Source: a virus. From it: 64,000 bases of DNA. Position numbers and translations under genes: made by a program. Location of the stretch: positions 1 through 64,000 of the IMG/VR virus record IMGVR_UViG_3300008120_000012. One strand, given 5' to 3'. Shown here one piece after another: positions 1,693 to 52,716 of the stretch (the first letter of the stretch is position 1; each line of letters starts with the position of its first letter). The notes below the pieces were generated by a model. That model was given only the letters and a program-made list of their open reading frames with translations, was not told the origin of the DNA and ran no database searches.

Positions 1693-3087
1693 ATGCCACA
1701 AATTGGTAGTGCATTAACTGGGTTAACACAGTTCAATGTTAATACTCAGATGCCTGCACTAACAGACAATGCAAATATTCAAGAAGCATTGCGTTTATAT
1801 CACTATGGTGCACCTTCAGGTACTGGAGTAGGTCAATATGATCCTACAAATACTGATCCAGTAAACCTTGTTAATCCATCAATAGCACATAGCCTATATA
1901 ATTTACAAACTCAGATAAGCAGCATTTCTGGATCACTTGGTGTACAAGCAGCAACATGGACATCTAAGGGTGCTTTGGTTTCTGCTACTGCTGCTGGAGC
2001 AGTTTCTGCATTAGTCCTACCTTCTCAATCAACTGCTAATGATGGATTTGTTTTAACTATTAACTACTCTGGTTCATCAACTGGTTTGGCTTGGGCATCT
2101 CCTCCAGTTACTCTTACTAATACTGTTACACTTACAAACAAAACTTTAACTGCTCCTAGAATTACATCTGCATCTCATATTGCAGACTCTAATGGTAATG
2201 AATTAATTATTTTCCCAACTGCTGTTGCTTCTGCTGTAAATGAAATTACTATTGCAAATGCTATTGCTACTGGAAAGCCTACTATTTCTGCTACAGGTGG
2301 AGATACAAACATTACTTTAAACCTTGTTTCAAAAGGAACAGGCACAGTCCAGGCTAACGGTGTTGATATTGATACAATTTCTGGTACCGCAACTTTAACA
2401 AACAAAACATTAACGTCTCCTACTATCAATACTCCTACAATTTCATCTCCTACCGTAACTCAACTTTATTTGTCTGACTCAGTTGTTATTTTTGAAGGAT
2501 CTAGTGCTGATGCAAATGAAACAACTTTAGGAGTAGTAAATCCAACAGCAGATAGAACAATTAATTTACCAGATGTTGATGGAACAGTTATTACTACTGG
2601 AAACTTAACTTCTATAACTGCCGTCGGAACAGTAACATCTGGAACATTCCCTGCTGCTAACTTAAGCGGAACTACTCTACCAGCAACGGTAGTATCTTCT
2701 TCACTAACCAGCGTTGGCACCCTTTCTTCTCTTTCAGTTTCTGGTGATCTTACTGTAAGTGGTAGGATGCTTGAGCGAATTTCTATAAATGCACAAACTG
2801 GAACATCGTATACAGTTATTGCTTCTGACGATAGCAAAATGATTGAAATGAATAATGCTTCTGCTAACACAATAACAGTTCCAAATCTTAGCACTATCCC
2901 AACAGGTGCAAAAATAAATATTGTTCAAACAGGAACAGGACAAACTACAATTGCTGCAGGAGCAAACGTAACTATTAATGGAACTCCTGGACTTAAGTTA
3001 AGAGCACAATGGTCTGGAGCAACCTTAATTAAAAGAAGCACAGGGGCAACGGACGTTTGGGTATTGCTAGGAGACCTTGTAGCATGA
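1693..3087 (+). CDS. Tail fibre protein with TLTNKTL repeats (464 aa)
   Basis: This is a long Thr/Ser/Ala-rich protein with the phage-fibre signature TLTNKTL at least twice (residues about 145 and 234), followed by SPTIN/SPTV-type spacers. These short repeats are typical of trimeric fibre shafts. The last 98 residues (367-464, DNA 2791-3084) form a separate domain containing MIEMNNASANTITVPNLS and NGTPGLKLRAQWS. The same domain closes the protein at 23354-24658. It begins after a GGGGTGTAGGAT Shine-Dalgarno region, and its stop overlaps the next start (ATGA). Likely role: receptor-binding fibre or fibre subunit. Confidence 0.7.
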   Translation: MPQIGSALTGLTQFNVNTQMPALTDNANIQEALRLYHYGAPSGTGVGQYDPTNTDPVNLVNPSIAHSLYNLQTQISSISGSLGVQAATWTSKGALVSATAAGAVSALVLPSQSTANDGFVLTINYSGSSTGLAWASPPVTLTNTVTLTNKTLTAPRITSASHIADSNGNELIIFPTAVASAVNEITIANAIATGKPTISATGGDTNITLNLVSKGTGTVQANGVDIDTISGTATLTNKTLTSPTINTPTISSPTVTQLYLSDSVVIFEGSSADANETTLGVVNPTADRTINLPDVDGTVITTGNLTSITAVGTVTSGTFPAANLSGTTLPATVVSSSLTSVGTLSSLSVSGDLTVSGRMLERISINAQTGTSYTVIASDDSKMIEMNNASANTITVPNLSTIPTGAKINIVQTGTGQTTIAAGANVTINGTPGLKLRAQWSGATLIKRSTGATDVWVLLGDLVA

Positions 3088-3764
3088 GTCCAATTATTCC
3101 AGCAGTTCCAGCATCTGGTGGCCATCAGCCAGGTACACCAACTGTAGGAACAGCAAGTGCTGGCAATGCTTCTGCAACAGTTGCTTTTACAGCGCCAGCA
3201 TATTTGGGAAAACCAACTGGAACAACTTATAGAGCAATAACTCAGCCAGTAGTTGTTAGAAGTACAACTGGAACAGTTGCAAACAATGTTCAAATCGGAT
3301 CTATATGGAGAGCAGATATTACTGGTATGTCTGCAGTTACAAACCTTTTTATTAATCAAGTAATTTCGGCAACAAACGGAACTGGATCTTTGGGCGCTGG
3401 TGTTGTTACAATTAAGGCTATTCCATCGTCTACCTCTCTTATTGTTGAGTCAACAGCAACAATGACAAATGGAACTATTACTAATATTTTAGGTGGAATT
3501 GTAGGTACTGGCTCAACATCTCCAGTTACTGTTAGCGGATTAACAAACGGAACAGCATATACTTTTAGACTTAACTTAGATAATACAGTTGTTCAATCTT
3601 TGCCAACAGGAGCAAGTAACTCTGTTACTCCAATTGCACCACCATTCTTCCCGCCATTCTTCCCGCCATTCTTCCCACCGTTCTTCCCACCGTTCTTCCC
3701 ACCATTCTTCCCACCGTTCTTCCCACCACCATACTTCTCATTCATCTGGGGCGCATCTCCTTAA
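3084..3764 (+). CDS. Fibre protein with FnIII-like part and C-terminal FFPP repeats (226 aa)
   Basis: The start chosen is the ATG at 3084 (ATGA overlap with the preceding stop); an upstream in-frame ATG at 3057 lies inside the previous gene. The N-terminal half has SGGHQPGTPTVGTASAGNAS, typical of a fibronectin type III-like edge. A segment containing ISATNGTGSLGAG (about residues 95-110) is shared with two places in the giant fibre at 14027-20317. A second FnIII-like strand pair (VSGLTNGTAYTFRL) follows. The C-terminus is a run of FFPP units encoded by 12-base tandem repeats, ending PPYFSFIWGASP. The PPYFSFIWG motif recurs in the protein at 52717-53532. Confidence 0.65.
   Translation: MSPIIPAVPASGGHQPGTPTVGTASAGNASATVAFTAPAYLGKPTGTTYRAITQPVVVRSTTGTVANNVQIGSIWRADITGMSAVTNLFINQVISATNGTGSLGAGVVTIKAIPSSTSLIVESTATMTNGTITNILGGIVGTGSTSPVTVSGLTNGTAYTFRLNLDNTVVQSLPTGASNSVTPIAPPFFPPFFPPFFPPFFPPFFPPFFPPFFPPPYFSFIWGASP
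3642..3725 (+). repeat. Seven 12-bp tandem repeats encoding (PFFP)n
   Basis: The unit CCATTCTTCCCG, with A/G variation at two positions, is repeated seven times in frame and encodes alternating PP and FF. The coding strand is almost pure pyrimidine, and its G+C content is well above the surroundings. The tract ends the gene at 3084-3764, directly before the oxygenase island. Confidence 0.9.
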
Positions 3765-3780
3765 AATATAAGTTGATGTA

Positions 3781-3789
3781 TGCTAGAAT
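3781..3789 (+). promoter_or_regulatory. Extended -10 promoter for a leaderless mRNA at the head of the accessory island
   Basis: TGCTAGAAT ends 7 bases before the ATG at 3797. No Shine-Dalgarno is seen, so the transcript should begin at the start codon. Confidence 0.55.
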
Positions 3790-3796
3790 TAAAATT

Positions 3797-4537
3797 ATGA
3801 ACAAATTATTTGATAGTTTTTATTTCCTGCATGTTCCAAAAACTGCTGGTAGATTTTTTACACATAATATTGTTGTTCCATTAGACAAAATACTTAAAGA
3901 GCACGGTATAGAAAATTTTTACGATAGAGAAACTTATGTTGCTCATAGGTTTTGGGCAGACTTTATAACAGATAAAACATATGTTACTAGTTTGTTCAGA
4001 GATCCGATCAAGCATGCAGTAAGTTTTTATTCTCATTATGCAATGTTAGATAGAGGTGCTCAAAGAACTATGCCAGTCGGAGCGATGCAATTTAATAAAA
4101 ACACCATGATGGATTGGTTTGAAAATAATAGTCATAGAATTGGGAATATGCAATCTAAAAACTTTTTGTTATCAGATTTAGGTGGTAAAGAATATGGATT
4201 TATGAATAGTGAAAAGGTAATTAATTGTGAAATATCAAAAGAAATAATGATTGAAAGATTACAAGATGTTTCGCTATTAATTAAATCTGAACAATTACAT
4301 CATCAAAATATACAAAATGTTTTTGATAAAATACTTCAAGATTTAAAAATACCACAGCATCAAATTAAACATAATATTCAGAAGGCATCAAATTATTGGA
4401 ACCCTGATTCAACAAGAATATACAAAAGTTTAGATAATACAGACAGGAATAGAATTTTAGAGTGGAATAATGTAGACGCAGAGGTTTACCATACAGAGTC
4501 TGTATTCTATAATATAAATACGAAAGTTAATCAATGA
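3797..4537 (+). CDS. Sulfotransferase-like protein (246 aa)
   Basis: The N-terminus has FLHVPKTAGRFF (residues 10-21), the 5'-phosphosulfate-binding loop of carbohydrate sulfotransferases of the Sulfotransfer_2 type. LFRDPIKHAVSFYSH (66-80) supplies the Arg and Ser expected for 3'-phosphate binding of PAPS (R68, S76). Expected reaction: transfer of sulfate from PAPS to a hydroxyl of a glycan or protein; the acceptor is unknown. The start at 3797 is preferred over an in-frame ATG at 3773 because TGCTAGAAT lies 7 bases upstream of it. The stop overlaps the next start (ATGA). It is the first gene of the island that follows the proline-rich fibre gene. Confidence 0.75.
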   Translation: MNKLFDSFYFLHVPKTAGRFFTHNIVVPLDKILKEHGIENFYDRETYVAHRFWADFITDKTYVTSLFRDPIKHAVSFYSHYAMLDRGAQRTMPVGAMQFNKNTMMDWFENNSHRIGNMQSKNFLLSDLGGKEYGFMNSEKVINCEISKEIMIERLQDVSLLIKSEQLHHQNIQNVFDKILQDLKIPQHQIKHNIQKASNYWNPDSTRIYKSLDNTDRNRILEWNNVDAEVYHTESVFYNINTKVNQ

Positions 4538-5034
4538 TAAAAGATATACAGTCAATAATTAATAATAATAAGATTATTTGGGAACAAAAAGAAACAAAAG
4601 AAGACTTGTTTCAATATAACTACTACATGCATTTTTTTTATTTATTTGATATTGATGAAAAATTATTTAAAGAAGGTAACAACTTTAAACTTGAAAAAAA
4701 TAAAAATCATGAAATTTGGAATTTAACAAATGAACTAATAAAAGAAATAGAATCTAAATATAATATGATTTCAGGTTCTGCATATTTTGTTAAATTAAAT
4801 CCACAACAATATCCTTTGCGTCAATACTATGAGTTTGAAGAATATGCAAGCATTATAAACAAATGTTATATTCCAATAATAACAAATTCTAATGCTTCAC
4901 TATGTGTTGATGATGAAATATATAACAATATCCCTGGTACAGAAACAATAGCACATAAAGAGCAGTTATCCTCATTGTATAATTTTGGAGAAACAGATAT
5001 TGTGTATTTAATTATTGATTTGATTGATAGATAA
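4534..5034 (+). CDS. Degenerate aspartyl/asparaginyl beta-hydroxylase-like protein (166 aa)
   Basis: The C-terminal half (residues about 105-166) contains YIPIITNSNASL, then a short acidic loop, then LSSLYNFGETDIVYLIIDLI. This follows the cupin core of the Asp/Asn beta-hydroxylase family. In that family the YN strand is normally preceded by an Fe-binding His, and an HxD pair lies before the IPxxTN strand. Here those positions appear to be Ser and YYE, so the metal site looks lost. The protein may therefore be a non-catalytic, perhaps binding or partner, protein. The family call rests on motif recall alone. It is translationally coupled to the sulfotransferase-like gene (ATGA). Confidence 0.45.
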   Translation: MIKDIQSIINNNKIIWEQKETKEDLFQYNYYMHFFYLFDIDEKLFKEGNNFKLEKNKNHEIWNLTNELIKEIESKYNMISGSAYFVKLNPQQYPLRQYYEFEEYASIINKCYIPIITNSNASLCVDDEIYNNIPGTETIAHKEQLSSLYNFGETDIVYLIIDLIDR

Positions 5035-5118: not shown

Positions 5119-5913
5119 GTGATAAAAAAAATATCAGAAGCAGTTTCAAATTTAATTATTTTTAGATCCTTCCGTCCTTGGCTCAATAATGAGAGTAACT
5201 CTGTTCCCTTGCCAACTCATAAAACAATGCCAAAATGGTACAAAGATGCAGATAGATTTGCAATTCATCCAATCACAAAAGATTATTATAAGGCGACAAA
5301 AGAAGTGTGTCCATTTCCACGACAAGGCACAACGGATGACTATGGCAAAATACCAACTTGGAAAGCATGCCCAGCAATCATGGATGGTTTTATTACAGGG
5401 TATGTTCTAAGAACTCCATGTGATATTACATTTTTTAAAGACAAGTATGGGAAAATAGATGTTAGTGTTAGTGATGAGAAGCATAAAGATTTTTGTACAA
5501 GGAGACAGCCTATGCCACAGTTTGAGCATCCACAGGGCTACTATCAAGAACATTTTGCATGGATGCCAGACTGGGGTCTAGAAGTTCCAGAAGGATACAG
5601 TTGTTTATATATGACTCCAATGAATAGATTTGACTTACCATTTTTAAATACAACTGGTGTTGTAGATAATGATAGCGTTCATATATCTGGAAGTTTTCCA
5701 TTTTTTGTAATTAAAGATTGGGAGGGAACAATTCCAGCAGGGACTCCGTACATGCAAATACTTCCTTTTAAAAGAGAAGATTGGACACATGAGATAGAGA
5801 TCTTGCAGCAAAAAGAAATTTATGATAGAATGATGGACAACATAAAACTATATCGTCAGCCAGACGGTGGGGTTTATCAAAATGACATTTGGACAAGAAG
5901 AGAGTATAAATAA
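5119..5913 (+). CDS. Phage protein of unknown function, DUF6065-like layout (264 aa)
   Basis: The start is a GTG (5119) behind AAAGGA and a good promoter. The protein has no membrane segments. After a PTHKTMPKWYKDADRF segment it shows CPAIMDGFITGYVL (residues about 84-97), then a C-terminal block with PEGYSCLYMTPMNRFDLPF and IPAGTPYMQILPFKREDW. The order (substrate-like pocket strand, then an xPAGTPxxxxxP strand) matches the neighbour at 6571-7287, which looks like DUF6065, so the two are probably distant relatives. Function is unknown. Such proteins occur in phages beside 2OG oxygenase genes, as here. Confidence 0.5.
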   Translation: MIKKISEAVSNLIIFRSFRPWLNNESNSVPLPTHKTMPKWYKDADRFAIHPITKDYYKATKEVCPFPRQGTTDDYGKIPTWKACPAIMDGFITGYVLRTPCDITFFKDKYGKIDVSVSDEKHKDFCTRRQPMPQFEHPQGYYQEHFAWMPDWGLEVPEGYSCLYMTPMNRFDLPFLNTTGVVDNDSVHISGSFPFFVIKDWEGTIPAGTPYMQILPFKREDWTHEIEILQQKEIYDRMMDNIKLYRQPDGGVYQNDIWTRREYK

Positions 5914-5914
5914 A

Positions 5915-6571
5915 ATGCAAACATGGAGTGCTAAAGAAGATCTTGGCAATGGAATTTATTGCTATAGAGATGTAATTAAACCAGAATTTGATATTATTAA
6001 CATATTAGAAAAAAATCTTGGCGCTATTGATAGCGAAAATGTTTTTAAGTGGAGACCAGCATATGTTGGTTATCAACAATTAATTCCAAGTTATCGTGAT
6101 TGTGTTGATTTTAAGTTTAAAAAAGAAGATATTCAACATATAGATACAGAAGAGTCATTAATTTTTCAAGATATGTGGCAAAAGGTTTATGATGCACAGC
6201 GTGTCGCAGTTGATGATTATCGTAAAGATTTTAATATTATGGATTTAAAATATTGGGAAGCCTTTAATTTTATTAAATATGGCCCAGGACAACACTTCCA
6301 AGAACATCATGATCATGGCTATTCTTATAACTGTACAGTTTCATTGGTTGCCTATGTTAATGATGATTACGAAGGTGGAGAGTTGTATTTTAGATTACAA
6401 AAAATGAACATCAAGCCAAAGGCTGGAGATTTATATGTGTTCCCATCTAACTTTATGTATCCACATCGTGCAATGCCCGTTCATTCTGGAACAAAGTATT
6501 CAATTGTAACAATGTTAGACTATAATAAAAAGTTTCATACAAGAGAGATGTATGTAGAAGACACAGAATAA
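5915..6571 (+). CDS. Prolyl 4-hydroxylase-like 2OG/Fe(II) oxygenase, copy 1 (218 aa)
   Basis: A full P4H-type double-stranded beta-helix core is visible. The Fe ligands are the HxD in EHHDH (H131, D133) and the distal H184 in YPHRAMPV. K194 (SGTKYSI) is placed to bind the 2-oxoglutarate carboxylate. The linker YVNDDYEGGELYF (148-159) is the family signature. Expected chemistry is O2- and 2OG-dependent hydroxylation; the substrate is unknown. I start at the ATG at 5915, directly after the preceding stop, because an upstream ATG (5867) would overlap the neighbour by 47 bases. The stop overlaps the next ATG (TAATG). Confidence 0.85.
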   Translation: MQTWSAKEDLGNGIYCYRDVIKPEFDIINILEKNLGAIDSENVFKWRPAYVGYQQLIPSYRDCVDFKFKKEDIQHIDTEESLIFQDMWQKVYDAQRVAVDDYRKDFNIMDLKYWEAFNFIKYGPGQHFQEHHDHGYSYNCTVSLVAYVNDDYEGGELYFRLQKMNIKPKAGDLYVFPSNFMYPHRAMPVHSGTKYSIVTMLDYNKKFHTREMYVEDTE

Positions 6572-7287
6572 TGAAAGTATCTGTTTATAAAATACCAAAC
6601 CATCCAGTTAAAATAGAACAAACTCAAGTTCAGAGGAACTGGATGGATGATACTTATGACAGACACGCATATAAATGCTTTCCTGTATCTCTTGCTAACT
6701 CCATTGGCTGGTCTATATCTTTTTTAGAAGACATAGAGTTTGTTTGGGATGGTGTTGTAGATACAACTCAAGATCATGTTAAAATATTAAAATCACCACC
6801 GAATGTTTGTAACTTAGGTCGTGGAAATGCAACAATAAGTTTTAATAGTGGTTTATATTTTCGTACTGATGAAAATACATCTATTATTTCTATTGTCCCA
6901 CCAAATTATTTTATAGATGGCGCAACACCATTTACGTCAATAATGTCTACTTCATTTTATGATGAGGCTTTTCCAATTGCATGGAGAATAACTAGGTCAC
7001 ATCAAAATATTGTAATTCCTGCAGGCACTCCAGTTGCTACATTAATTCCAGTTTCACTTGAAAAACTTTCTTTGATTGAGTTAGAGGTATATGACAAAAC
7101 TTTTGATCCAGAGGCCCTGCAAGAAAAAAGGGAATACCTAGAAGAATGGAAAAAAATATCAGAGCAGGGCAAGTTTAGTAATTTTTATAGAGATGCTGTT
7201 GATCATAAAGGGCAAAGCATAGGCAGCCATGAAAAAAAGTCTTTACACTTAAAAATAACAGATTTAACTACAAAAAACGAGAGGTGA
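6571..7287 (+). CDS. DUF6065-family protein (238 aa)
   Basis: Residues 24-49 (WMDDTYDRHAYKCFPVSLAN followed by GWSISF) match my memory of the DUF6065 signature: W-M, then a C-x-P-x-x-x-A-N-x-x-G-W block. Later come a FRT segment (about residue 96) and a C-terminal IPAGTPVATLIPV strand. The tail is charged and helical. The family has no known activity. It is coupled by TAATG to the first oxygenase. Together with the gene at 5119 it gives two members of this family in one island, which suggests that they work with the oxygenases. Confidence 0.6.
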   Translation: MKVSVYKIPNHPVKIEQTQVQRNWMDDTYDRHAYKCFPVSLANSIGWSISFLEDIEFVWDGVVDTTQDHVKILKSPPNVCNLGRGNATISFNSGLYFRTDENTSIISIVPPNYFIDGATPFTSIMSTSFYDEAFPIAWRITRSHQNIVIPAGTPVATLIPVSLEKLSLIELEVYDKTFDPEALQEKREYLEEWKKISEQGKFSNFYRDAVDHKGQSIGSHEKKSLHLKITDLTTKNER

Positions 7288-7293
7288 TATAAT
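7286..7293 (+). promoter_or_regulatory. Extended -10 promoter before oxygenase copy 2
   Basis: TGATATAAT ends 6 bases before the ATG at 7300, which would give a leaderless or near-leaderless transcript. A GAGAGGTG sequence at 7279-7286 could also serve as a distant Shine-Dalgarno for read-through mRNA. Confidence 0.5.
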
Positions 7294-7299
7294 AATAAT

Positions 7300-8022
7300 A
7301 TGGAAATCACAAACAAGAATCACTTAGATAGAGTCGCAAAGTCTATTACGCCTTCTGGATTTTATGGAACTGGCAAAGACATGATTGTTGAACTTGAAAA
7401 CTTTATGACACAGGAAGAGATTGATTTTCTAGAAAATGCTGCAAAGTCTATAACTATTTGGGATGTTACAGAAAGTCATCAAAATGACAACGGTACTGTT
7501 ATTTATGATGCTAACTATTGGAAAGATAGAGTGGCAACTAGGTCTAGTCTAGATAAAAATGATCCCAGAATTGGTCCAGTAATTGAAGGCCTATTTAAAA
7601 AACTACAACCAATTATTGAAGACTTTTTTAAAGTTAAAGTTCAACCAACTGGACAAACAATTGTAAGATGGCTTCCTGGACAATTTCAAAAACCACATGC
7701 AGACAAAGAACTTCATGAGGGTCCTGATGCTGGACTGGCTAATGATTTTCCATACTATGATCTTTCAAGTTTATTTTACTTAAATGATGACTACGAGGGT
7801 GGAGAGTTATATTTCCCGTTGCAAGATGTTAAGTTTAAACCAAAAAAAGGTGCAGCATATTTTTTCCCAGGAGACATGAACTTTATCCATGGAGTTACAG
7901 AAATTAGAAATGGTATTAGATACACCTGTCCATTCTTTTGGACCATTTTAGAACATACTGGAGAAGTAAAGCCAAATCAAAATGAAAAGTACCACAGGAC
8001 ATTGTTGGATGGTGATAAATAA
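7300..8022 (+). CDS. Prolyl 4-hydroxylase-like 2OG/Fe(II) oxygenase, copy 2 (240 aa)
   Basis: The Fe ligands are H133 and D135 (PHADKE) and H197 (FIHGVTEIRNGIRY). R207 is positioned as the 2-oxoglutarate-binding base, where copy 1 has Lys. The YLNDDYEGGELYF signature is at residues 160-172. The N-terminal 120 residues differ from the other copies and probably set substrate choice. The start ATG at 7300 lies 6 bases after a TATAAT box. All expected catalytic residues are present, so it is likely active; the substrate is unknown. Confidence 0.85.
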   Translation: MEITNKNHLDRVAKSITPSGFYGTGKDMIVELENFMTQEEIDFLENAAKSITIWDVTESHQNDNGTVIYDANYWKDRVATRSSLDKNDPRIGPVIEGLFKKLQPIIEDFFKVKVQPTGQTIVRWLPGQFQKPHADKELHEGPDAGLANDFPYYDLSSLFYLNDDYEGGELYFPLQDVKFKPKKGAAYFFPGDMNFIHGVTEIRNGIRYTCPFFWTILEHTGEVKPNQNEKYHRTLLDGDK

Positions 8023-8024
8023 AT

Positions 8025-8765
8025 ATGAAAGAGATTAGATATTCAGAGGATATTTTAGTATATGAAGATTTTCTTACACCTGAAGAATGTCAAAAAATTA
8101 TTGATGTTTTAAATTTGCAGGTAAAGAATGAAACAATGCAATGGACACCTATAACATTTTACGAATCATATTCATCTAATTTACCAAAAGATAATGATCC
8201 AGAAATTTTAGAATGTGGTTTGCCAGGAACCTTTTTTTCAGATATTGAACAAAAGATTATAGAGATAACTGCAAAGATTCATAATAAAGATCCAAAACAG
8301 ATGTCTAAAATTGGATATCACACACAAAAATGGGAAAAGGGAGCATATGCTACTGTACATGCTGATAACTCATATAATGATGGAACTCCAAGTCCATTTG
8401 AAAGAAGTAGATATGCAACGTTTGTATATTTAAATGAAGATTTTGAAGGTGGGATATTAAATTTCCCAGAACGACAAATACAGATAAAACCTAAAACTGG
8501 GCTACTTGCTGCTTTTGCTGGAGATTACACAAATTTGCATGAAGTTACAATGATTACAAAAGGCACTAGATATACCTTGGGATCTTTTTGGGATGATAGG
8601 GACGCTGAAGACTATCCAGAAGAAGTAAGAAATAGATGGGAAGAAGAAATGAAAAAAATTAGAGAGTCTCAAGAAGAAACAAAGGCTGAATGGAAAGAGT
8701 TGTTAGACGAAGGATACAAGATTGATCCTATCGGAAATAAATACAAAGTGGAGGAACAAGCATGA
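8025..8765 (+). CDS. Prolyl 4-hydroxylase-like 2OG/Fe(II) oxygenase, copy 3 (246 aa)
   Basis: The Fe ligands are H112 and D114 (VHADNS) and H172 (NLHEVTMI), with R182 (KGTRYTLGSFW) for 2-oxoglutarate. The signature is the variant YLNEDFEGGILNF (135-147). A charged helical C-terminal extension of about 55 residues (from 190) follows the core and is not seen in copy 1. The start follows the previous stop by two bases, and the stop overlaps the next start (ATGA). The substrate is unknown. Confidence 0.85.
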   Translation: MKEIRYSEDILVYEDFLTPEECQKIIDVLNLQVKNETMQWTPITFYESYSSNLPKDNDPEILECGLPGTFFSDIEQKIIEITAKIHNKDPKQMSKIGYHTQKWEKGAYATVHADNSYNDGTPSPFERSRYATFVYLNEDFEGGILNFPERQIQIKPKTGLLAAFAGDYTNLHEVTMITKGTRYTLGSFWDDRDAEDYPEEVRNRWEEEMKKIRESQEETKAEWKELLDEGYKIDPIGNKYKVEEQA

Positions 8766-9532
8766 AGTTAGAGAAAAGGTTACATGAAAACATCTATTAC
8801 TATACAGATGTTTTGCCAGATCATGAAAAATTTCTTAATTTAATTTTAGAGACAGATGGTAATCCAGACATACAGCCAGTAATTCCATCATGGCAAAAGT
8901 GGCTTTCTAACTCAAATGACGGCTACTCCTTTGGTGGTAAAAAAGATATGCAGCCAAACAATTTGCACCTACTTTCTGGTGAAACAAAAGAGAAGGCAGA
9001 GTACATTGTTGACTCAATATTAGGTTCAATAAAAAAGGTTGCAGAGGCTTTCATACAAGATAGAGGGCTAGACATACCAAATCCAAACCTTTCTCCTTTT
9101 GCTGGAATAATGAAATATATTCCAGGATTAGAAATGGGTGCACATTTTGATGCACAGGCTGGAGATGAAAGTCTTTGGTGGTCTATTATAGTTTATGTAA
9201 ATGATAACTATGAGGGCGGAGAACTTTCTTGGATTCTTCATGATAAAGATCTAAGAGATCCACAGTACAGCCATTTGAAGCCACACTCAGATATTAATGA
9301 CCCTAGAAATGAGGAACTTGTTGACTTTTGGATTAAGCCAGTTGCAGGATCTGCATTGATCTTTCCATCTACTTTCCCATATCGTCATCAAGTACATTTA
9401 ATGAAGTCTGGTGATAAGTATATGTTCCCTGGTTTTATTTTTAAAGATGGATATGATCCATCAGATCCAGAATCTATTGAAAAATTTAATGGTGGCTCAA
9501 AGGTGGTAAAAAAGAGTCCATATGAACAATAA
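8762..9532 (+). CDS. Prolyl 4-hydroxylase-like 2OG/Fe(II) oxygenase, copy 4 (256 aa)
   Basis: The Fe ligands are H128 and D130 (GAHFDAQ) and H209 (YRHQVHLM), with K219 (SGDKYMF) for 2-oxoglutarate. The signature is YVNDNYEGGELSW (145-157). An insertion of about 30 residues (160-190, DKDLRDPQYSHLKPHSD and on) separates the signature from the distal half of the core and is peculiar to this copy. The gene overlaps both neighbours (ATGA upstream, 11 bases downstream), so it sits in one operon with them. Confidence 0.85.
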   Translation: MKLEKRLHENIYYYTDVLPDHEKFLNLILETDGNPDIQPVIPSWQKWLSNSNDGYSFGGKKDMQPNNLHLLSGETKEKAEYIVDSILGSIKKVAEAFIQDRGLDIPNPNLSPFAGIMKYIPGLEMGAHFDAQAGDESLWWSIIVYVNDNYEGGELSWILHDKDLRDPQYSHLKPHSDINDPRNEELVDFWIKPVAGSALIFPSTFPYRHQVHLMKSGDKYMFPGFIFKDGYDPSDPESIEKFNGGSKVVKKSPYEQ

Positions 9533-10334
9533 TTTTGATTATAGTAATGATTCTTATGATATAGAATTTTTACATCCCAAGGTTTGGTTATTTAAAAATG
9601 CCTTCAAGCATAGTAAAGAAATTATTGATTACTTTGAAAAAAACCATGAATGGAGAAAATGGGAAATTTTTGGTACAGAGTCCAAAATATCAACACCAGA
9701 AAAAACATATTCTAACTTTCCGACCAAAGAAGAATGGAAAAATGATATAGTTGATCATGTTAATAATGAATATGTAACAGAATTTTTGTGGGTATTTTAT
9801 AATACAACAAAATTGTTTTGTGAAAAATTAGATATTAAAAAGGATAACTGGATTTTTACAACAACTGAAATATCAAAATATTATGAAAATATGGGTGTAT
9901 CTAATGATGGCGCTATGAACTTTCATACTGATCATGAACAAGAAAAAGAATCTGAAGAAGGAATTAAATTTGGAACTGCTTGTTTAGTTTATTTAAATGA
10001 TGACTATGAAGGCGGAGAGATTGTTTTTAGAATATCAGATGATAGTTTTAGTAAGGTAGTTGATGAATTTTCCTATAAGCCAAAAACTGGCGATGTGTTA
10101 GTTTTTCCATCAGAACATCCGTTTTATCACGCAGTAAATGCAATTAAAAATAAACAAAAATATTTAATAAGACATTGGTGGAGACATTGGTACCAAGGCA
10201 GTCAAGAATTTATAGATCTAAAGAATAAGTTTATGTTAGAAAATAATCCAGAAGACTGGGAAAAATATTTAATAGATTATCGTAGATCAAAAAGAATTAA
10301 CATAGATACTATTATAAACCAATTACAAAAATGA
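9522..10334 (+). CDS. Prolyl 4-hydroxylase-like 2OG/Fe(II) oxygenase, copy 5 (270 aa)
   Basis: The Fe ligands are H135 and D137 (FHTDHEQ) and H203 (FYHAVNAI), with K213 (NKQKYLI) as 2-oxoglutarate ligand. The signature is YLNDDYEGGEIVF (157-169). It is the longest copy: an N-terminal domain of about 110 residues, plus a C-terminal basic and aromatic tail (RHWWRHWYQ, then a helical end). It starts inside the last 11 bases of copy 4 and ends in an ATGA overlap with the dehydrogenase-like gene. The substrate is unknown. Confidence 0.85.
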   Translation: MNNNFDYSNDSYDIEFLHPKVWLFKNAFKHSKEIIDYFEKNHEWRKWEIFGTESKISTPEKTYSNFPTKEEWKNDIVDHVNNEYVTEFLWVFYNTTKLFCEKLDIKKDNWIFTTTEISKYYENMGVSNDGAMNFHTDHEQEKESEEGIKFGTACLVYLNDDYEGGEIVFRISDDSFSKVVDEFSYKPKTGDVLVFPSEHPFYHAVNAIKNKQKYLIRHWWRHWYQGSQEFIDLKNKFMLENNPEDWEKYLIDYRRSKRINIDTIINQLQK

Positions 10335-11002
10335 TACTAAATAAAAAAGCCTTAGTTATTGGAGGAACCTCTAGCATATCCCATGAAATAATTGAAACAC
10401 TTAATAGCAACGGGTATTTTGTTGATTTAACTTATAATAATATAGAAAATTTTAAAAAAAGAAACATTTATTCTGATAAATATGTAAGTTGGCATTATTT
10501 AAACCTGCACGATCTTGATTGTATAAAAAATTTTATAAATACAAAAATAGAAAACTATTATTCTATTGTAGTTTTTATTTCAATGACGTCTCCTGGTAAT
10601 TTTATGGAAAATACTGAAGAAGAACTTGTTAATTTTTATGGCAAATATCTTGTTAATAATATGTTGATGTCAAAATATTTATTAAATAAAATTACTAATG
10701 ATGGTAAAATTATCTATATATCCTCTATTGCAGTTACTAAACCAGTTCCACAAATTAATTATGCAACTATAAAAGGTGCCCTACAGTCTTTTTACGTATC
10801 GCTATCAACCAATGTTAAACCAACACAGACTGTCATATCCATAATTCCAGGGCTAATATATGATACCCCCGCTTTTTATAGGTGTAGTTTGGACATGATA
10901 GACAATATAGATAACCTAGCAAAAAAACAAGAAATTGCTGATATAATAATTAACTGTAGTCCAAAAGATAATGGAACTCTCATTAGAGTAGGGAAAGACT
11001 AA
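10331..11002 (+). CDS. Short-chain dehydrogenase/reductase (223 aa)
   Basis: This is a classical SDR outline. The nucleotide-binding turn GGTSSIS (residues 11-17) departs from the usual GxxxGxG by having Ser in the final position. Catalytic Ser is S131 or S132 (YISSIAV), and the YxxxK pair is Y144/K148 (YATIKGA). Expected activity is NAD(P)-dependent oxidation or reduction of an alcohol/ketone, possibly on a sugar or on a product of the neighbouring hydroxylases; the substrate is not known. It is slightly shorter than typical SDRs (about 250 aa). It is coupled to copy 5 by ATGA. Confidence 0.75.
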   Translation: MILNKKALVIGGTSSISHEIIETLNSNGYFVDLTYNNIENFKKRNIYSDKYVSWHYLNLHDLDCIKNFINTKIENYYSIVVFISMTSPGNFMENTEEELVNFYGKYLVNNMLMSKYLLNKITNDGKIIYISSIAVTKPVPQINYATIKGALQSFYVSLSTNVKPTQTVISIIPGLIYDTPAFYRCSLDMIDNIDNLAKKQEIADIIINCSPKDNGTLIRVGKD

Positions 11003-11003
11003 T

Positions 11004-11465
11004 ATGGAGCAATTAAAAGTAGAGCATAGCGACATGGTTGATGACTATATAAGTCAGGTTAAAGATAAAACTGCTAATTCTTATATGCTAACAATTGCTA
11101 GAGACGGAGAAGAGCCAGTTAGAACTATTATATTTTATGATAATGCTATAGATGCTGCATTTGCTTATAATAAATATACAGACTGGGGTTTTGCAAGAAA
11201 ATTTTTAACTGTTAAATTATATGAACCATCTGGAAAAATAAATGAAAAAGTTCTTGTTAGAGATCAGGCTGGAGAATGTACCTTTATAAGACAGGACTAT
11301 ATAGATTTTGAAAATTTATTGTTTATTTATAAAGATAAAATTGAAAAAGATGTTTATGACTCTTTAGTATTTGATGTTATGAAAATTTTTGCTAAGGATA
11401 ATTGGAGGTTTAATCCAGAAAGATTTTTATTAGCATTAGGTGTAAATAAAAGGTTAGAACTATGA
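11004..11465 (+). CDS. Phage protein of unknown function (153 aa)
   Basis: I do not recognise this family. It is soluble, mixed alpha/beta and rich in Asp, Lys and Tyr. The central region reads as beta-strand/helix (RTIIFYDNAIDAAFAYNKY), followed by a strand pair (LTVKLYEPSGKI). The C-terminal third is helical. There is no signal peptide or transmembrane segment. It sits between the dehydrogenase and oxygenase copy 6 and overlaps the latter (ATGA), so it is co-translated with the island and may be an accessory protein to it. Confidence 0.5.
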   Translation: MEQLKVEHSDMVDDYISQVKDKTANSYMLTIARDGEEPVRTIIFYDNAIDAAFAYNKYTDWGFARKFLTVKLYEPSGKINEKVLVRDQAGECTFIRQDYIDFENLLFIYKDKIEKDVYDSLVFDVMKIFAKDNWRFNPERFLLALGVNKRLEL

Positions 11466-12082
11466 AATATGAGTTTTTAGAAAATAACATTGTTTACTTT
11501 GAATCTGTAATACAAAATGTTCAAGATATTATAGACACAATGGAAGGCTTATCAAATCCAGCAGTTACTGACTGGGAGGCATGGTATGCATATAATACAA
11601 CAACAAGATATGGCGATATAAAATACTTGTGCAAAAAAGAACTAATCGGTATTGAAGATAGAATTATTAAAGAAAAATCACAATTTGTTATTGAATCCTT
11701 AATTAATAATATGTGTGCTTGTATTGATAAATATGGAGAATTGTTTAATATTAATACAAATAAAATGATATTTGCTAAAGAAATTTTAAACAATGACTTC
11801 ACTAAGATTGGCATCTATAAATATTCTCAAAATGCAACCATGGGACCACATGTTGACTGGAATGATGACAATAATTATTTAGAATATACTATAGTTGTAT
11901 ATCTTAATGACGACTACGAAGGTGGAGAGTTGTACTTCAATGAATTTGATATTAAACTAAAGCCAAAGGCTGGTAGCATTGTTATGTATCCATCAGTTAA
12001 ACCATACACACACGAATCTTTAAAAGTGGTAAGTGGAAGAAAATGTTTGATTACTCATCATTGGAGAAATGATGAAATTTAA
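11462..12082 (+). CDS. Prolyl 4-hydroxylase-like 2OG/Fe(II) oxygenase, copy 6 (206 aa)
   Basis: The Fe ligands are H130 and D132 (GPHVDWN) and H184 (YTHESLKV), with K194 (SGRKCLI) for 2-oxoglutarate. The signature is YLNDDYEGGELYF (147-159). The C-terminal ITHHWRND resembles the IRHWWRHW end of copy 5, which suggests that copies 5 and 6 are closest to each other. It is compact, with no insertions. The next gene follows ten bases later behind an AAGGAG Shine-Dalgarno. Confidence 0.85.
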   Translation: MKYEFLENNIVYFESVIQNVQDIIDTMEGLSNPAVTDWEAWYAYNTTTRYGDIKYLCKKELIGIEDRIIKEKSQFVIESLINNMCACIDKYGELFNINTNKMIFAKEILNNDFTKIGIYKYSQNATMGPHVDWNDDNNYLEYTIVVYLNDDYEGGELYFNEFDIKLKPKAGSIVMYPSVKPYTHESLKVVSGRKCLITHHWRNDEI

Positions 12083-12091
12083 GGAGCCACT

Positions 12092-12760
12092 ATGGAATTA
12101 AAACCAATACAATCAACAACGTTAATGGATTATGAAAGTGGTCAAAATGTTGAAGTAAAGCAGTTTCAAGTAGAAGACTTAATTTTAAATCATGAATTTG
12201 CCACACCCCACGCAGGCTTTGCCCTTAGATTCAATAACGATAAAAAAGACGGTACCTTTTTAGAAATTGGTGCATGTCATTGGAAGCAGGGTAATAATAC
12301 ATATCTTTTAGAAAAAGAATTTAATTGGAAAGGTGTTGCTATTGATATAGTGAAACATTTTGCTGACGACTATAATATAAATAGATCAAGTCACTGTATA
12401 CATGGAGATGCTTTTTCATATAATTGGGATCAGTATTTAAGTGAAAACAATTTTCCAAAAAGAATAGATTATTTGCAAATAGATGTTGATAAAACACCAG
12501 ATTGGGCAAATTTATTTGCTTTGCTTAATGTTCCATTATCTAGATACAGATTTAATACAATTACTTTGGAGCATTGTGCAAATATGGATCCAAGACTAAT
12601 GAAAATGAGAGATTTACAAAGAGAGATTTTATTTTCTTATGGATACAGAATTGTTGCTGCTGGGTATGATGAGGATTGGTGGATAGATTCGCAACTAGGA
12701 ATTAGTGAGTCAGAATTTAATTCAATTTCTTATCAAGCATGGGCTAAAAAGTTTATTTAA
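12092..12760 (+). CDS. FkbM-like SAM-dependent methyltransferase (222 aa)
   Basis: Motif I is DGTFLEIGACHWKQGNNT (residues 53-70), close to the F(V/L)EIGA...G..NT...LE pattern of FkbM-family methyltransferases. AIDIV (83-87) carries the acidic residue (D85) expected to hold the SAM ribose. IDYLQIDVD (125-133) matches the later strand of that fold. Expected activity is O-methylation, often of a sugar hydroxyl; the acceptor is unknown. It has an AAGGAG Shine-Dalgarno. Its stop overlaps the stop of the opposite-strand gene by four bases, which marks the end of the + strand run of the island. Confidence 0.7.
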   Translation: MELKPIQSTTLMDYESGQNVEVKQFQVEDLILNHEFATPHAGFALRFNNDKKDGTFLEIGACHWKQGNNTYLLEKEFNWKGVAIDIVKHFADDYNINRSSHCIHGDAFSYNWDQYLSENNFPKRIDYLQIDVDKTPDWANLFALLNVPLSRYRFNTITLEHCANMDPRLMKMRDLQREILFSYGYRIVAAGYDEDWWIDSQLGISESEFNSISYQAWAKKFI

Positions 12761-13296
12761 AAATTTTTAATAAAACTTGTGTTTTCATTACCTTTTATAA
12801 AAATAGTAAACATATATCTAGTGCCAGTTTCTACTGGAAGGACAGAATGCCAATAGTCCCATTTATGAACTATAACAGATTTTGCTTTAGGTTTTATTTT
12901 ATAATCTAATTCTGGGTAATATAGTTCCCCACCTGTAAAATTATCATTAACATAAAAAACTGCTCCAAATACAATATTTGTATTGGTGCCAGATGGATCA
13001 AAATCTTGATGCTCACTCATATACATTCCATCTTTTAGTCTTTGTAAATCAATTACTTCTAAATATGAAGTATAGTTTTTAAAATATTTCATTAGTTTTT
13101 CTTCTAAACTTCTAAAAGTTGGTATTATTTCTGTTTTAAAATTATTAATATTATAGTTTCTTCCACCAACATCTTGCCATTCATTTTCAGAAACGTGATC
13201 TATAGCATCATTTAGCAATGCAATTTCTTCATTTGTAATAAAGTTTTCCAGTTCCCAGATATAATCATGGTGTTGTATTATATTTATATTATACAT
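12757..13296 (-). CDS. Prolyl 4-hydroxylase-like 2OG/Fe(II) oxygenase, copy 7 (179 aa, minus strand)
   Basis: The Fe ligands are H96 and D98 (SEHQDFD) and H150 (YWHSVLPV), with R160 (TGTRYMF) for 2-oxoglutarate. The signature is YVNDNFTGGELYY (115-127), the only copy with TGG in place of EGG. It is the shortest copy and the only one on the minus strand, with its own extended -10 promoter. A 13-bp inverted repeat spans its first codons and leader. Convergent with the methyltransferase gene; the stop codons overlap. Confidence 0.85.
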   Translation of the reverse strand: MYNINIIQHHDYIWELENFITNEEIALLNDAIDHVSENEWQDVGGRNYNINNFKTEIIPTFRSLEEKLMKYFKNYTSYLEVIDLQRLKDGMYMSEHQDFDPSGTNTNIVFGAVFYVNDNFTGGELYYPELDYKIKPKAKSVIVHKWDYWHSVLPVETGTRYMFTIFIKGNENTSFIKNF

Positions 13297-13321: not shown

Positions 13322-13894
13322 TTACTTTGGAAATTTTTGCATCCATGTTTTTGTACGTGGCGTGATGCCTTTCCAGGCACTCCAATTTTTACCACCATTA
13401 CTCATGTGATACGCAATCTGAGCATTAACTACTGGATTCATTAACTCAGCAGTAAAATTTAAGCCATATTTTTCACGACGATCTGGACCAAGCATGCTTA
13501 TCATATTTATTTGGAATAGTCCAAAAGAACTGTCTCCAGTCTTAGCATTGCCATTAAAAGCCAATGGTCTGCCGTTGGACTCCTTTTTAGCAATAGCCCA
13601 AGCCTCAATAAGGTCCTTGCCCCTAAACCCAACTCCCTTTAGAAGTTCTTTAAGTTGCCTATCAGATAGATAGGTTGCATTTTGATATTTATGTAAAACG
13701 TTCATGTCCTTTTTTACCTTAAGTAATGATTTGGGCTTAGATACCAAAAAAACCGCCTTTGGGGCGGTAGATTCAGAAACAGCCTGTTTACTTAAGTTAT
13801 TTTCATCAGACAGAGCATTAGCCTTATTAGACACCAAAGTGAAAGTAAAGACAAATGCGAGTACCCCTATTAAAAATTTTTGATCATTCTTCAT
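13322..13894 (-). CDS. Secreted lysozyme-like transglycosylase, probable endolysin (190 aa)
   Basis: The start chosen is MKNDQKF, behind a perfect TAAGGAGG Shine-Dalgarno; an upstream in-frame start (13921) lies in the leader. The N-terminus is a signal peptide: Lys-containing n-region, hydrophobic residues 8-22, then ANA before LSDE (27/28 a possible cut). After a Lys/Ser linker, the lysozyme-like SLT domain runs from about residue 75 to the end, with catalytic Glu E105 (AIAKKESNGR), GDSSFGLFQIN (120-130) and NAQIAYHMS. Expected action is cleavage of peptidoglycan glycan strands outside the membrane. Signal peptide export would allow holin-independent delivery. It is on the minus strand with its own strong promoter. 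Confidence 0.75.
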   Translation of the reverse strand: MKNDQKFLIGVLAFVFTFTLVSNKANALSDENNLSKQAVSESTAPKAVFLVSKPKSLLKVKKDMNVLHKYQNATYLSDRQLKELLKGVGFRGKDLIEAWAIAKKESNGRPLAFNGNAKTGDSSFGLFQINMISMLGPDRREKYGLNFTAELMNPVVNAQIAYHMSNGGKNWSAWKGITPRTKTWMQKFPK

Positions 13895-13914
13895 AGTTTC
13901 CTCCTTAGAAAACA

Positions 13915-13953
13915 ATAACACCTTGTTAGGTGTCTATGAATAGTATAACACCT
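13915..13953. promoter_or_regulatory. Repeated ATAACACCT elements in the lysin promoter (possible operator)
   Basis: ATAACACCT occurs at 13915-13923 and again at 13945-13953, with AGGTGT in inverted orientation at 13928-13933. The second copy overlaps the minus-strand -10 box. The first copy and the inverted element can form a hairpin in the lysin leader. The arrangement fits a repressor or activator site; the binding protein is unknown. Confidence 0.45.
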
Positions 13954-13970
13954 AAAAATGTTATTGTCAA
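13942..13970 (-). promoter_or_regulatory. Strong promoter of the lysin gene
   Basis: On the minus strand the -35 is TTGACA (13965-13970) and the -10 is TATACT (13942-13947), with a 17-base spacer and an extended TG. This is the closest match to consensus in the window. Confidence 0.8.
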
Positions 13971-14008
13971 ATGGGCTTTTTAATAAAAAACTAAAAAATC
14001 TTTTAGCA

Positions 14009-14017
14009 TGCTATAAT
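14009..14017 (+). promoter_or_regulatory. Extended -10 promoter for the giant fibre gene (leaderless)
   Basis: TGCTATAAT ends 9 bases before the ATG at 14027. No Shine-Dalgarno is present between them. It is divergent from the lysin promoter. Confidence 0.55.
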
Positions 14018-14026
14018 AGAAACACT

Positions 14027-17000
14027 ATGGCATCAGGCTTAACTCCTATATATCTTATTCCATATCCACTCTCAAGTGATCCAGTTAACGTTCACGGAGA
14101 TGTTCAGTTATTGGCAGAACAATTAGAGGATGTATTATTTTTAAAGCCTGATAAAAATTTAAGCAATATATTTACACAATCAAATATTTTTAATGTTAAC
14201 TCTGCTACTGACGCAGTGCGAATAACTCAGTCTGGTGCTGGTAATGCCCTTGTTGTTGAGGATGCATCAAATCCAGATACCTCTGCATTTGTTATTGATA
14301 CAAATGGCAACGTAGCAATTGGAAAAACTACTGCCTCTGTAAAACTTGATGTGGTTGGTGCAGCAGCCATATCTGGAGCAGTAACGGGATTAACATTTAA
14401 TGGACTAACCCTAACTTCAGCAGCAACTGGGTTTACAATTGCTGGCGGTACTACAAGTAAAACACTTACTCTTAGTAATACTCTTACCTTAGCAGGTACA
14501 GATTCAACAACAATGACATTTCCATCTACAAGTCAAAACATTGTAGGTACTACAGCAACACAAACACTTACTAATAAATCTCTTTCTGATTCAACTACAT
14601 TTATTGTTGACGTTGCAGATGCTACAAAGAGATTACAGTTTGACATTGGTGGCACAACTAATATTACTGGTACCTTTGCAACAGCATTTACCACTGCAAA
14701 AACTGTAACATTCCAAGACGTTGCAGGTACTGTTTATGTATCAGGCGGAACAGATGTAACCTTAGCAGATGGTGGTACAAATGCATCTCTTACTGCTGTA
14801 AATGGTGGTGTAGTTTATTCAACTGCGTCTGCCCTTGCAATTTCTGCTGCTGGTAGTGCTGGTCAAATTTTAAGATCTGCAGGTGCTGCAGCCCCAACAT
14901 GGTCTACTGCAACTTATCCTGCTACAACTACTGCTAATCAAATTTTATATTCATCTGCAGCAAATACTATTGGTGAAATAACTACTGCAAATAACCAAGT
15001 TCTTGTTACAAATGGTTCTGGTGTTCCTGCATTTTCTGGTACCCTGCCTTCTGGTGTAACTGCTTCATCTCTTACTTCATTTGGCACATCTCCAACATTA
15101 ACAACACCTACAATTGATACGATAAACGTATCTGGTGCTTCAGTTGCTGCTGCTCTTTGGAATACAACTCTTACCACTGGCTCTATTTCAATGGGTGGAG
15201 CATTAACAACTGGTTCAGTAAACATTGCAAATGGCACTGCTCTTGCTGCTGGTTCAGTTAATATTGCTTCTGGTGCAGGTACTGGAAATAAGACTGTAAA
15301 TATTGGAACTTCTGCAACATCTGGAACTACTGCTATCACAATAGGATCAACCTCTGGAGCAACAAGCACCGTTGGAATTAATGGAGCAACAACAGTAACT
15401 GGAACACTTACCACAACAGGAAATGTTACAGTCGGAGGAGACTTAACTGTTAATGGAATTTTAACAAGTATTAATACTAACACTCTAACTGTTGATGATA
15501 AGAACTTAGAACTTGGTGGAGTTGTTGCTGAAGTAGTGTCCACAACTGGTACGGTTGGATCAATTACAGGAACTGGGCCTTGGACAGCAACTATAACTGG
15601 AATGACAGATACTGCTAATTTAGTAGTAGGATCTGCAATTACAGCAACAAATGGAGTGGGATCACTTGGAGCAGGCGGTACATACGTAGTTGCATCTATA
15701 GTTAGCCAAACATCAATTACTTATACCGCAACAGGAGGAACAACACCAGTTGCTGGTACTATTACAAATATTACAAGTGGTGGGCCAACTAATACAACAG
15801 CAGATGGTGGTGGTATAACATTAAAGGGAACAACAGATAAAACCATTACTTGGGATGCAGCAAATGGCAACTGGACATCAAATCAACCATGGAATATAAC
15901 TTCTGGCAATACATTTAAAATTAACAACGTATCAGTTCTTTCTAATACTTCAGTATTAGGTTTGACACCAACCATCAATGCAACAGGATATACACTTTCT
16001 GGCGGTACTACAGCAGTAGCAGTTACATTTGCTGGAGGTGCTGCTTATACTATTAGCGGTACAAATGGTCAGACTTACACATTGCCATCTTCTGGCGGTA
16101 CTGTTGCATTAAACCCAACTACAACTATTGGCGATATCATTTATGCATCAGCAACAGGAACACCTGGAACTTTAACACGTCTTGCAGGTAATACTGCTAC
16201 ACAGCCATCATTCCTAACATCAACTGGAAACGGTACTGCTAATACAACCACATCTTTTACATCCTCAACAGGTTCAGGAAACGTTGTATTGGCTACATCA
16301 CCAACTATTTCTGGTGGAAGCATTTCAGGTCTTACAACACTTGCTATTCGTGATACTTCAGCAGCATTTGACGTGACAATAGCAGCAACCTCTTCTCCAG
16401 CCTTGAGCGCAGGACGTGCTTTAACACTTAATATGCAAAATGCTGCAAGAACAATTTCTTTGGCTGGTAATATAACTGTTGGAGGTGCTTTAACTACAGC
16501 ATCGTCATTTACAACATCAGGTGCTTTTGCGTTAACACTTACTACTACAAATACAACAAATGCAACAATACCTGCAGGCACAGTAACACTTGTAGATCTT
16601 TCTACATCACAGGCTTTGACCAATAAAACAATTAGTGGTTTAACAGTTTCAACAACTACAGGAACATTAACAATACCTGCTGCTACTATCGCATTTTCTG
16701 GTGCTAATAATACAACTATTACTACAACTGGAGCAACTTCTGTTACATTGCCTACTTCAGGTACCTTGGCTGCAAACGTTACAACAACTATTGGTGATGT
16801 TATTTATGCATCTGCTACAGGTACACCAGGAACACTTGCAAGACTTGCAGGTAATACAGCAACTCAGCCAGCATTTTTAACATCAACTGGTAATGGAACT
16901 GCTAATACTACTACATCGTTTACTTCTTCAACAGGATCTGGAAATGTTGTTTTAGCAACTAGCCCAAGCATTGCTGGCGGTACTCATACAGGATTAACAT

Positions 17001-35658: not shown

Positions 35659-35904
35659 ATGTCATATTCAGATACAAACCCAAATGAAACACTAAATGCA
35701 CAAGGCGCAGTAGCAATAAATAGTGTTGGCGGTGTAATTATTATGGGACCAAGCGGATTGATCACTCAGCATAATGCGTTGGGTAATATTAATGGAGATG
35801 TAATATTTGGAGATACAACAGGTCCTAACGCTGTAAATCCATCTGGTACTCCATCTGGTGGAAAAAATCCACAACAAAATAATTTTATAAGTTATATAAG
35901 ATAA
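35659..35904 (+). CDS. Small protein copying the N-terminal region of the major capsid protein (81 aa)
   Basis: It begins behind TAAGGAGA, after the capsid terminator. It is Gly/Asn/Ser-rich with no hydrophobic helix. Residues about 52-67 (DTTGPNAVNPSGTPSGG) match TTGPNAVNPTGTLGG at residues 54-68 of the major capsid protein. Both are followed by a hydrophobic FIxYxx (FISYIR here, FIDYVWD in the capsid), after which this protein stops. It therefore looks like a free copy of the capsid N-terminal arm. Possible roles: decoration or capping of the capsid, or regulating assembly. There is no known family that I recognise. Confidence 0.55.
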   Translation: MSYSDTNPNETLNAQGAVAINSVGGVIIMGPSGLITQHNALGNINGDVIFGDTTGPNAVNPSGTPSGGKNPQQNNFISYIR

Positions 35905-35910
35905 GCATTC

Positions 35911-52712: not shown

Positions 52713-52716
52713 AACT

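Follow-up and report, generated by a model that had tools for sequence, protein, structure and literature searches.

What use does an uncultured aquatic bacteriophage make of seven prolyl-4-hydroxylase (P4H)-like genes in a single island? The question is raised by positions 5915-13296 of the stretch of DNA analysed here (the window), which comprises bases 1-64000 of the 94,591-base IMG/VR record IMGVR_UViG_3300008120_000012; the remaining 30 kb of the record were also read. We propose that the island supplies the enzymes for a module that hydroxylates a virion protein; the substrate would be a fibre-like protein with a C-terminal PPFF array encoded upstream, and we give this reading a probability of roughly 0.6. 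The seven genes, six on the plus strand and one on the minus strand, are all open reading frames (ORFs) where an earlier reading, made from the sequence alone (the sequence-only reading), had placed them:

5915-6571, plus strand: oxygenase g1, PF13640, P4H-like 2-oxoglutarate (2OG)-Fe(II) enzyme, core clade 1
7300-8022, plus strand: oxygenase g2, PF13640, core clade 2
8025-8765, plus strand: oxygenase g3, PF13640, accessory, orthologues in 48 loci
8762-9532, plus strand: oxygenase g4, PF13640, accessory, distal His preceded by an insertion
9522-10334, plus strand: oxygenase g5, PF13640, accessory, best other relative 39% identical, HTD site conserved
11462-12082, plus strand: oxygenase g6, PF13640, accessory, window-specific
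12757-13296, minus strand: oxygenase g7, PF13640, accessory, on the opposite strand

All seven products score above the curated cut-off of the Pfam family PF13640 (E = 9e-16 to 8e-8), and the complete HxD...H site with a Lys or Arg that had been claimed for every copy is borne out in 7/7. The iron-site triads are, from g1 to g7, HHD, HAD, HAD, HFD, HTD, HVD and HQD, each followed by the distal His, and the 2OG residue is Lys in g1, g4, g5 and g6 and Arg in g2, g3 and g7. The aligner displaced the motif of g5, where HTD was confirmed by direct reading. Over the relatives described below, all four active-site residues are present in 753 of 774 oxygenases; five of the 21 exceptions were readable, g5 included, and all five are alignment shifts with HTD intact. 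The YxNDxYEGGExxF signature, which had been ascribed to all seven, occurs in its exact form in g1, g2, g5 and g6, but only as variants in g3 (YLNEDFEGGILNF), g4 (...ELSW) and g7 (YVNDNFTGGELYY).

By sequence profile, the closest solved relatives of these enzymes are P3H1 (6e-12) and the Chlorella-virus collagen prolyl hydroxylase vCPH (5e-11), with B. anthracis P4H, PHD2 and an algal P4H. The structure model of g1 (pLDDT 87, pTM 0.85) is matched first by vCPH (4e-9), then by the Pseudomonas P4H in complex with EF-Tu (1.3e-8) and by the algal P4H with (Ser-Pro)5; g1 is accordingly modelled as a double-stranded beta-helix closest to protein prolyl hydroxylases. The fold confirmation proposed in the sequence-only reading thus stands for g1, while the other six were compared by sequence. 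vCPH, from Paramecium bursaria Chlorella virus 1 (PBCV-1), is, like the enzymes proposed here, a viral enzyme proposed for a repetitive structural protein, but it is a single algal-virus enzyme for collagen-like or poly-Pro peptides, whereas here several enzymes accompany (PPFF)n rather than Gly-X-Y, together with DUF6065 proteins, in tailed phages. The algal and plant P4Hs whose targets are the hydroxyproline-rich proteins of cell walls (3gze, with (Ser-Pro)5) are alike in fold and in having proline-rich, non-collagen repeat substrates; they are, however, eukaryotic secretory enzymes, and we know of no PPFF substrate for them. Virus-encoded prolyl hydroxylation has been proposed for chlorella virus proteins (PMC7019647), and Mimivirus also encodes the modification of a repetitive viral protein, although by a lysyl hydroxylase/glycosyltransferase acting on collagen, in an unrelated host and arrangement (PMC9546862).

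The candidate substrate is encoded before the island, and therefore outside the interval that the sequence-only reading had marked:

3084-3764, plus strand: fibre-like protein of 226 aa with C-terminal (PPFF)7 PPPYFSFIWG; longest ORF from 3057

The (PPFF)7 array lies at 3639-3722, and its units differ in the DNA at third positions of Pro codons only, a pattern that conservation of the protein sequence would predict. The protein has a weak fn3 match (E 0.05); fn3 is found at E 8e-10 in the relative L325 and is frequent in the relatives' fibre genes. No Gly-X-Y collagen-like substrate was found in the window, and collagen was rejected as a general substrate, since Gly-X-Y arrays occur in only 26 of 201 loci (13 of them g1-set loci), with PP-aromatic arrays present instead.

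Array and enzymes are tightly linked. Of the g1-type cassettes, 39 have 3 kb or more of upstream sequence, and in all 39 a Pro-aromatic array (PPFF, PFF or PPYF) stands directly before the cassette. All 60 arrays with 5 kb downstream are followed by a same-strand oxygenase no more than 3 kb away, the median distance to the next same-strand downstream oxygenase being ~590 bases. The link was also seen independently of the enzymes, when IMG/VR was scanned for PPFF-coding DNA alone and 50 records among the matches listed were taken as a sample, with 22 records of at least 30 kb, picked by a Walker-A pattern, as controls. All listed matches lie in open frames carrying the repeat. PF13640 is present in at least one copy in 43 of the 50 listed records, in at least two in 41 and in at least five in 37, against a single copy in 1/22 controls and multiple copies in 0/22 (Fisher 3e-11). 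Of the 43 listed records with an oxygenase, 38 also have PF19541, the family of the core partner DUF6065B, which is found in 0/22 controls. Both core clades, represented by g1 and g2, occur together in 39 of the 48 listed loci with 5 kb downstream, neither in nine and one alone in none; for the 108 PP-array loci whose downstream DNA is long enough, the corresponding counts are 99, nine and zero. Among 257 Gb of prokaryote contigs, four contigs carry true long arrays, and the three that have flanks all adjoin these oxygenases, whereas none of 22 chance PPFF matches in prokaryote genomes has neighbouring oxygenases. The long-array contigs are perhaps viral contigs within metagenome-assembled genomes.

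The pairing is found in more than one phage lineage. Measured against the window capsid, the PPFF records have a capsid of 77-82% identity, of 40-44% identity, or an undetectable one. One record of the last kind, G030, was read over its full length. Its sheath and baseplate genes mark it as contractile-tailed, and its portal and head proteins belong to other families, yet in the tree the enzymes beside its array fall with the g1 and g2 clades. As phages unrelated to one another share this pairing, the enzymes probably act on the repeat. Within the window's own capsid lineage, array and cassette occur together in two relatives of at least 80 kb and are both missing from three; smaller fragments mostly agree, a comparison confounded by physical linkage. 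A T4-like origin of the PPFF phages was rejected, with gp23 in 0/50 listed records, a result that is weak alone as the gp23 family also matched no control genome.

A scan of IMG/VR with g1 returned 566 encoded relatives, and the best 80 loci were compared. They hold 2-10 oxygenases each, most frequently seven, in a steady order: 2OG oxygenase, DUF6065A, g1, DUF6065B, g2 and further oxygenases, often with a short-chain dehydrogenase (SDR) or FkbM-like gene. Recurrence of this clustered arrangement in 80 relatives places the island far beyond chance, and the suggestion of a dedicated system was well founded, in the form of a conserved cassette of the protein-hydroxylase type whose gene order is kept across relatives. 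The two DUF6065 genes of the window are:

5119-5913, plus strand: DUF6065-type protein A, phrog_7084 (1.6e-32), beside g1 in 81 loci
6571-7287, plus strand: DUF6065 protein B, PF19541 (8e-34), core; with g1 in 82 loci

With orthologue clusters defined at 55% identity, g1 has members in 109 loci, g2 in 110 and g3 in 48, and g4-g7 are nearly private to the window phage. The number of oxygenases is not in itself unusual. One or two such genes had been thought common per aquatic phage, which is too low, as cyanophage genomes have 7-9 PF13640 matches (P-SSM2 9, ACG-2014f 8, S-H9-1 7, S-T4 7). These T4-like cyanophage 2OG-Fe(II) oxygenases (PHROG 61, 81, 274, 2297, 3531) are of the same Pfam family, but they are scattered, have no PPFF array, and the sampled copies fall outside the g1 and g2 clades. 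The distinctive features are the clustering and the upstream PPFF gene rather than the oxygenase count. The PHROG labels 'DNA endonuclease V' and 'ferrochelatase' met in these searches were rejected as misannotated 2OG domains. In L291 (P-SSM2 PSSM2_163) and L290 (ACG-2014f AIX30397.1), genes annotated denV or ferrochelatase overlap PF13640 matches, and the labels of phrog_274, 2297 and 3531 seem to inherit that annotation.

Are seven enzymes needed for seven targets? The other six are 22-30% identical to g1, and in the tree the seven fall in distinct clades, each common to other phages, so that they are not recent duplicates. A recent tandem duplication was rejected on these grounds (identities of 23-31% among the paralogues, separate clades shared with other phages), and of the two origins that the sequence-only reading had left to phylogeny, the tree favours separate and old clades. 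The idea of seven substrates is unsupported, since the striking partner is a single repeat protein whose many prolines are equivalent, and among the seven enzymes the g1 and g2 types alone are universal in the module.

With this in mind, a mechanism may be suggested. The core of the module would be the PPFF fibre, the g1-type and g2-type hydroxylases and DUF6065B. During assembly the C-terminal (PPFF)n of the fibre would be hydroxylated, most likely on its prolines, by the 2OG-Fe(II) enzymes of the cassette, with the use of O2, Fe(II) and 2-oxoglutarate. The two core enzymes might each serve one proline of the PP pair, or perform 3- versus 4-hydroxylation; this division of labour is conjecture. 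Lineage-specific oxygenases (here g3-g7), the SDR and the sulfotransferase- and methyltransferase-like genes would modify extra positions or decorate the hydroxyls, the accessory oxygenases differing among phages as fibre tips do. Such a fibre would be an adhesive rod, rich in hydroxyproline, stiff and polar, and similar in concept to mussel-foot proteins or extensins.

Several points weigh against this proposal. The putative substrate is assigned from sequence and models, and the peptides that P4Hs are known to act on are collagen-like or of Ser-Pro/poly-Pro type, to which PPFF would be an addition. The core partner DUF6065B, with its predicted dUTPase-like fold, has no evident part in protein hydroxylation. 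Seven of the 50 listed PPFF records lack an oxygenase, and some but not all of these are short fragments. The cyanophages with 7-9 PF13640 matches and no PPFF indicate that such enzymes have other substrates too. The sampled viruses are interrelated and often fragments, so the p-values overstate independence, and array and cassette, being adjacent, are lost together from fragments. Lastly, a chlorovirus review (PMC7019647) cites an unpublished amino-acid analysis of PBCV-1 particles, which reportedly gave no hydroxyproline despite the presence of a P4H.

An alternative, which we consider unlikely, is that the cassette modifies a glycan or small molecule, such as a host surface polysaccharide or a virion sugar, with the oxygenases acting on sugars or lipids alongside the SDR, FkbM-like and sulfotransferase-like genes. 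These genes do lie within the island, glycosyltransferase-, FkbM- and carbamoyltransferase-like genes were seen by eye at 76-89 kb of the genome, and one relative has a weak PHROG match to galactose-3-O-sulfotransferase. However, these partners vary among relatives, and it is the PP array, the two core oxygenases and DUF6065B that are almost always present; the nearest structures are protein hydroxylases. Still less probable is a positional explanation, in which the tail-fibre region collects cargo genes and the oxygenases lie beside the PPFF gene by location alone. The cassette does sit among tail fibre genes with variable accessory content, and some near-full-size related phages lack array and cassette alike; yet array and enzymes stay together in a phage whose head and tail genes are unrelated and in contigs assigned to bacterial genome bins, the array was never seen with a single core clade, and random phages have neither multi-copy PF13640 nor PF19541. 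That the enzymes redirect the host by hydroxylating its proteins, EF-Tu or ribosomal proteins for instance, is quite improbable: the match of g1 to the P4H-EF-Tu complex is in favour of this reading, but the reading leaves the PPFF link and the position in the structural-gene region unexplained. Modification of nucleotides or DNA bases, with DUF6065 as a dUTPase-like nucleotide enzyme, has the least chance, for although DUF6065B best matches dUTPase/dCTP deaminase folds, DUF6065A relatives in haloviruses adjoin thymidylate synthase and g2 has a sub-threshold Tet_JBP match (14.9 bits where 34.9 are required, E 0.016), PF13640/P4H and not TET fits all seven best, the PHROG 'DNA endonuclease' labels trace to cyanophage 2OG proteins annotated denV, and PPFF would be left unexplained.

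Returning to virion-protein hydroxylation, a wider proposal is about evenly balanced between right and wrong, namely that several tailed-phage lineages make a hydroxylated, possibly further decorated proline-aromatic fibre by means of a transferable module (PPFF protein, two core prolyl hydroxylases, dUTPase-fold partner, variable accessory oxygenases). A Baltic Sea survey counts P4HA among abundant viral auxiliary genes whose viral use 'remains cryptic', and the accessible part of it proposes no substrate, repeat protein or cassette (PMC9301287). The linked repeat protein is a concrete candidate substrate for auxiliary enzymes of one of the commonest classes in aquatic phages; if the proposal is true, it would be the first substrate class for their abundant P4H genes. 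Phage assembly would then include a protein modification that depends on O2 and 2-oxoglutarate, O2 and iron would be needed for virion adhesion, and hydroxylated proline-rich materials could be made at bacterial scale with the PPFF system. No report was found that brings PPFF repeats together with multiple P4H-like enzymes and DUF6065, nor any paper mentioning DUF6065, in a literature search that most subscription papers and preprints lay beyond.

The remaining genes in and before the island are the following:

3773-4537, plus strand: sulfotransferase-like gene, HVPKTAG motif by eye
4534-5034, plus strand: 166-aa protein, sub-threshold Asp/Asn beta-hydroxylase similarity, no obvious HxD
10331-11002, plus strand: SDR, above the curated cut-off (3e-11)
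11004-11465, plus strand: 153-aa protein of unassigned family, present in 21 loci of the set
12092-12760, plus strand: FkbM-like methyltransferase-like protein, below the Pfam cut-off (E 0.079), in 19 loci

The sequence-only reading had named two DUF6065-type genes, an SDR, an FkbM-like methyltransferase and a sulfotransferase-like gene, and its labels fared unevenly. The SDR is real, and a different SDR-like family occurs in the cassette of 29 loci. DUF6065B belongs to its family by Pfam, while DUF6065A does not match Pfam DUF6065 and is linked to it through phrog_7084 and a weak profile-profile match only (E 1e-4). The FkbM similarity exists but is sub-threshold. The sulfotransferase-like gene does have the motif, but its label is weak, as it has no Pfam, PHROG or convincing PDB match; genes resembling it, with HIPRTSG or HIPKTAG, lie among the oxygenases of two other phages. 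The 166-aa protein takes the position held by an extra oxygenase in relatives. The DUF6065B model, of lower confidence (pLDDT 75), appears to be a dUTPase-like beta-roll, with best Foldseek matches to dUTPase/dCTP deaminase at E 6e-4 and TM 0.3-0.4 on the query, and the protein could be a trimeric scaffold or a nucleotide enzyme. DUF6065A relatives in haloarchaeal tailed viruses (L088, HSTV-2 gene 40) adjoin thymidylate synthase and DNA polymerase, without oxygenases.

A further proline-rich gene of the virion region was recognised by direct reading:

52696-53532, plus strand: second proline-rich virion-region protein, PPYV repeats and poly-Pro

It has the PPYFSFIWG motif in common with the fibre-like protein and is a possible second substrate. 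A second PP-aromatic array distant from the cassette, as in the window, is also present in L144, L169, G013, G025, G030 and G080. In L120, L132, L163, L176 and L204, the PPFF-array ORFs have Hint/intein-like C-termini (e.g. ...WYFAGNILTHNK), which suggests that the repeat protein is autoprocessed there.

The window carries tailed-phage genes for a portal (phrog_12) and a capsid (phrog_1623/phrog_10), a 2,322-aa protein that is probably the tape measure and, by reading, a DnaB-like helicase, a primase and a DNA polymerase; terminase- and RecA-like genes lie in the last 30 kb of the record. INPHARED gave no match to the window at the DNA level, and no RNA element was found in window positions 1-25000. 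The identity of the phage's capsid with Streptomyces phages of the StarPlatinum type, up to 44%, hints at an actinobacterial host (Actinomycetota), but no tRNA was found and no WhiB-like gene was noticed by eye in the record's last 30 kb. Directly behind the capsid gene, at 35671-35907, lies a stretch interrupted by a TAA that shares 46% identity with the major capsid protein over residues 19-90; it may be a decayed partial capsid duplication or a related small gene. A secreted Ala-rich protein with a near-identical signal peptide (MKSFKKIALAMVAAMTLG...) is encoded in L090 at 7261-8397 (record 70261-71397) and in L330 at 13424-14617, phages of different capsid groups, and may reflect a common host clade. 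Outside the window, L090/L091 hold genes that resemble, by eye, SGNH hydrolases (motif GCSYTWGSG), a NodU-type carbamoyltransferase and IMP dehydrogenase (record 75756-78127, 85503-86513, 92708-93664), and these look by eye like further modification genes.

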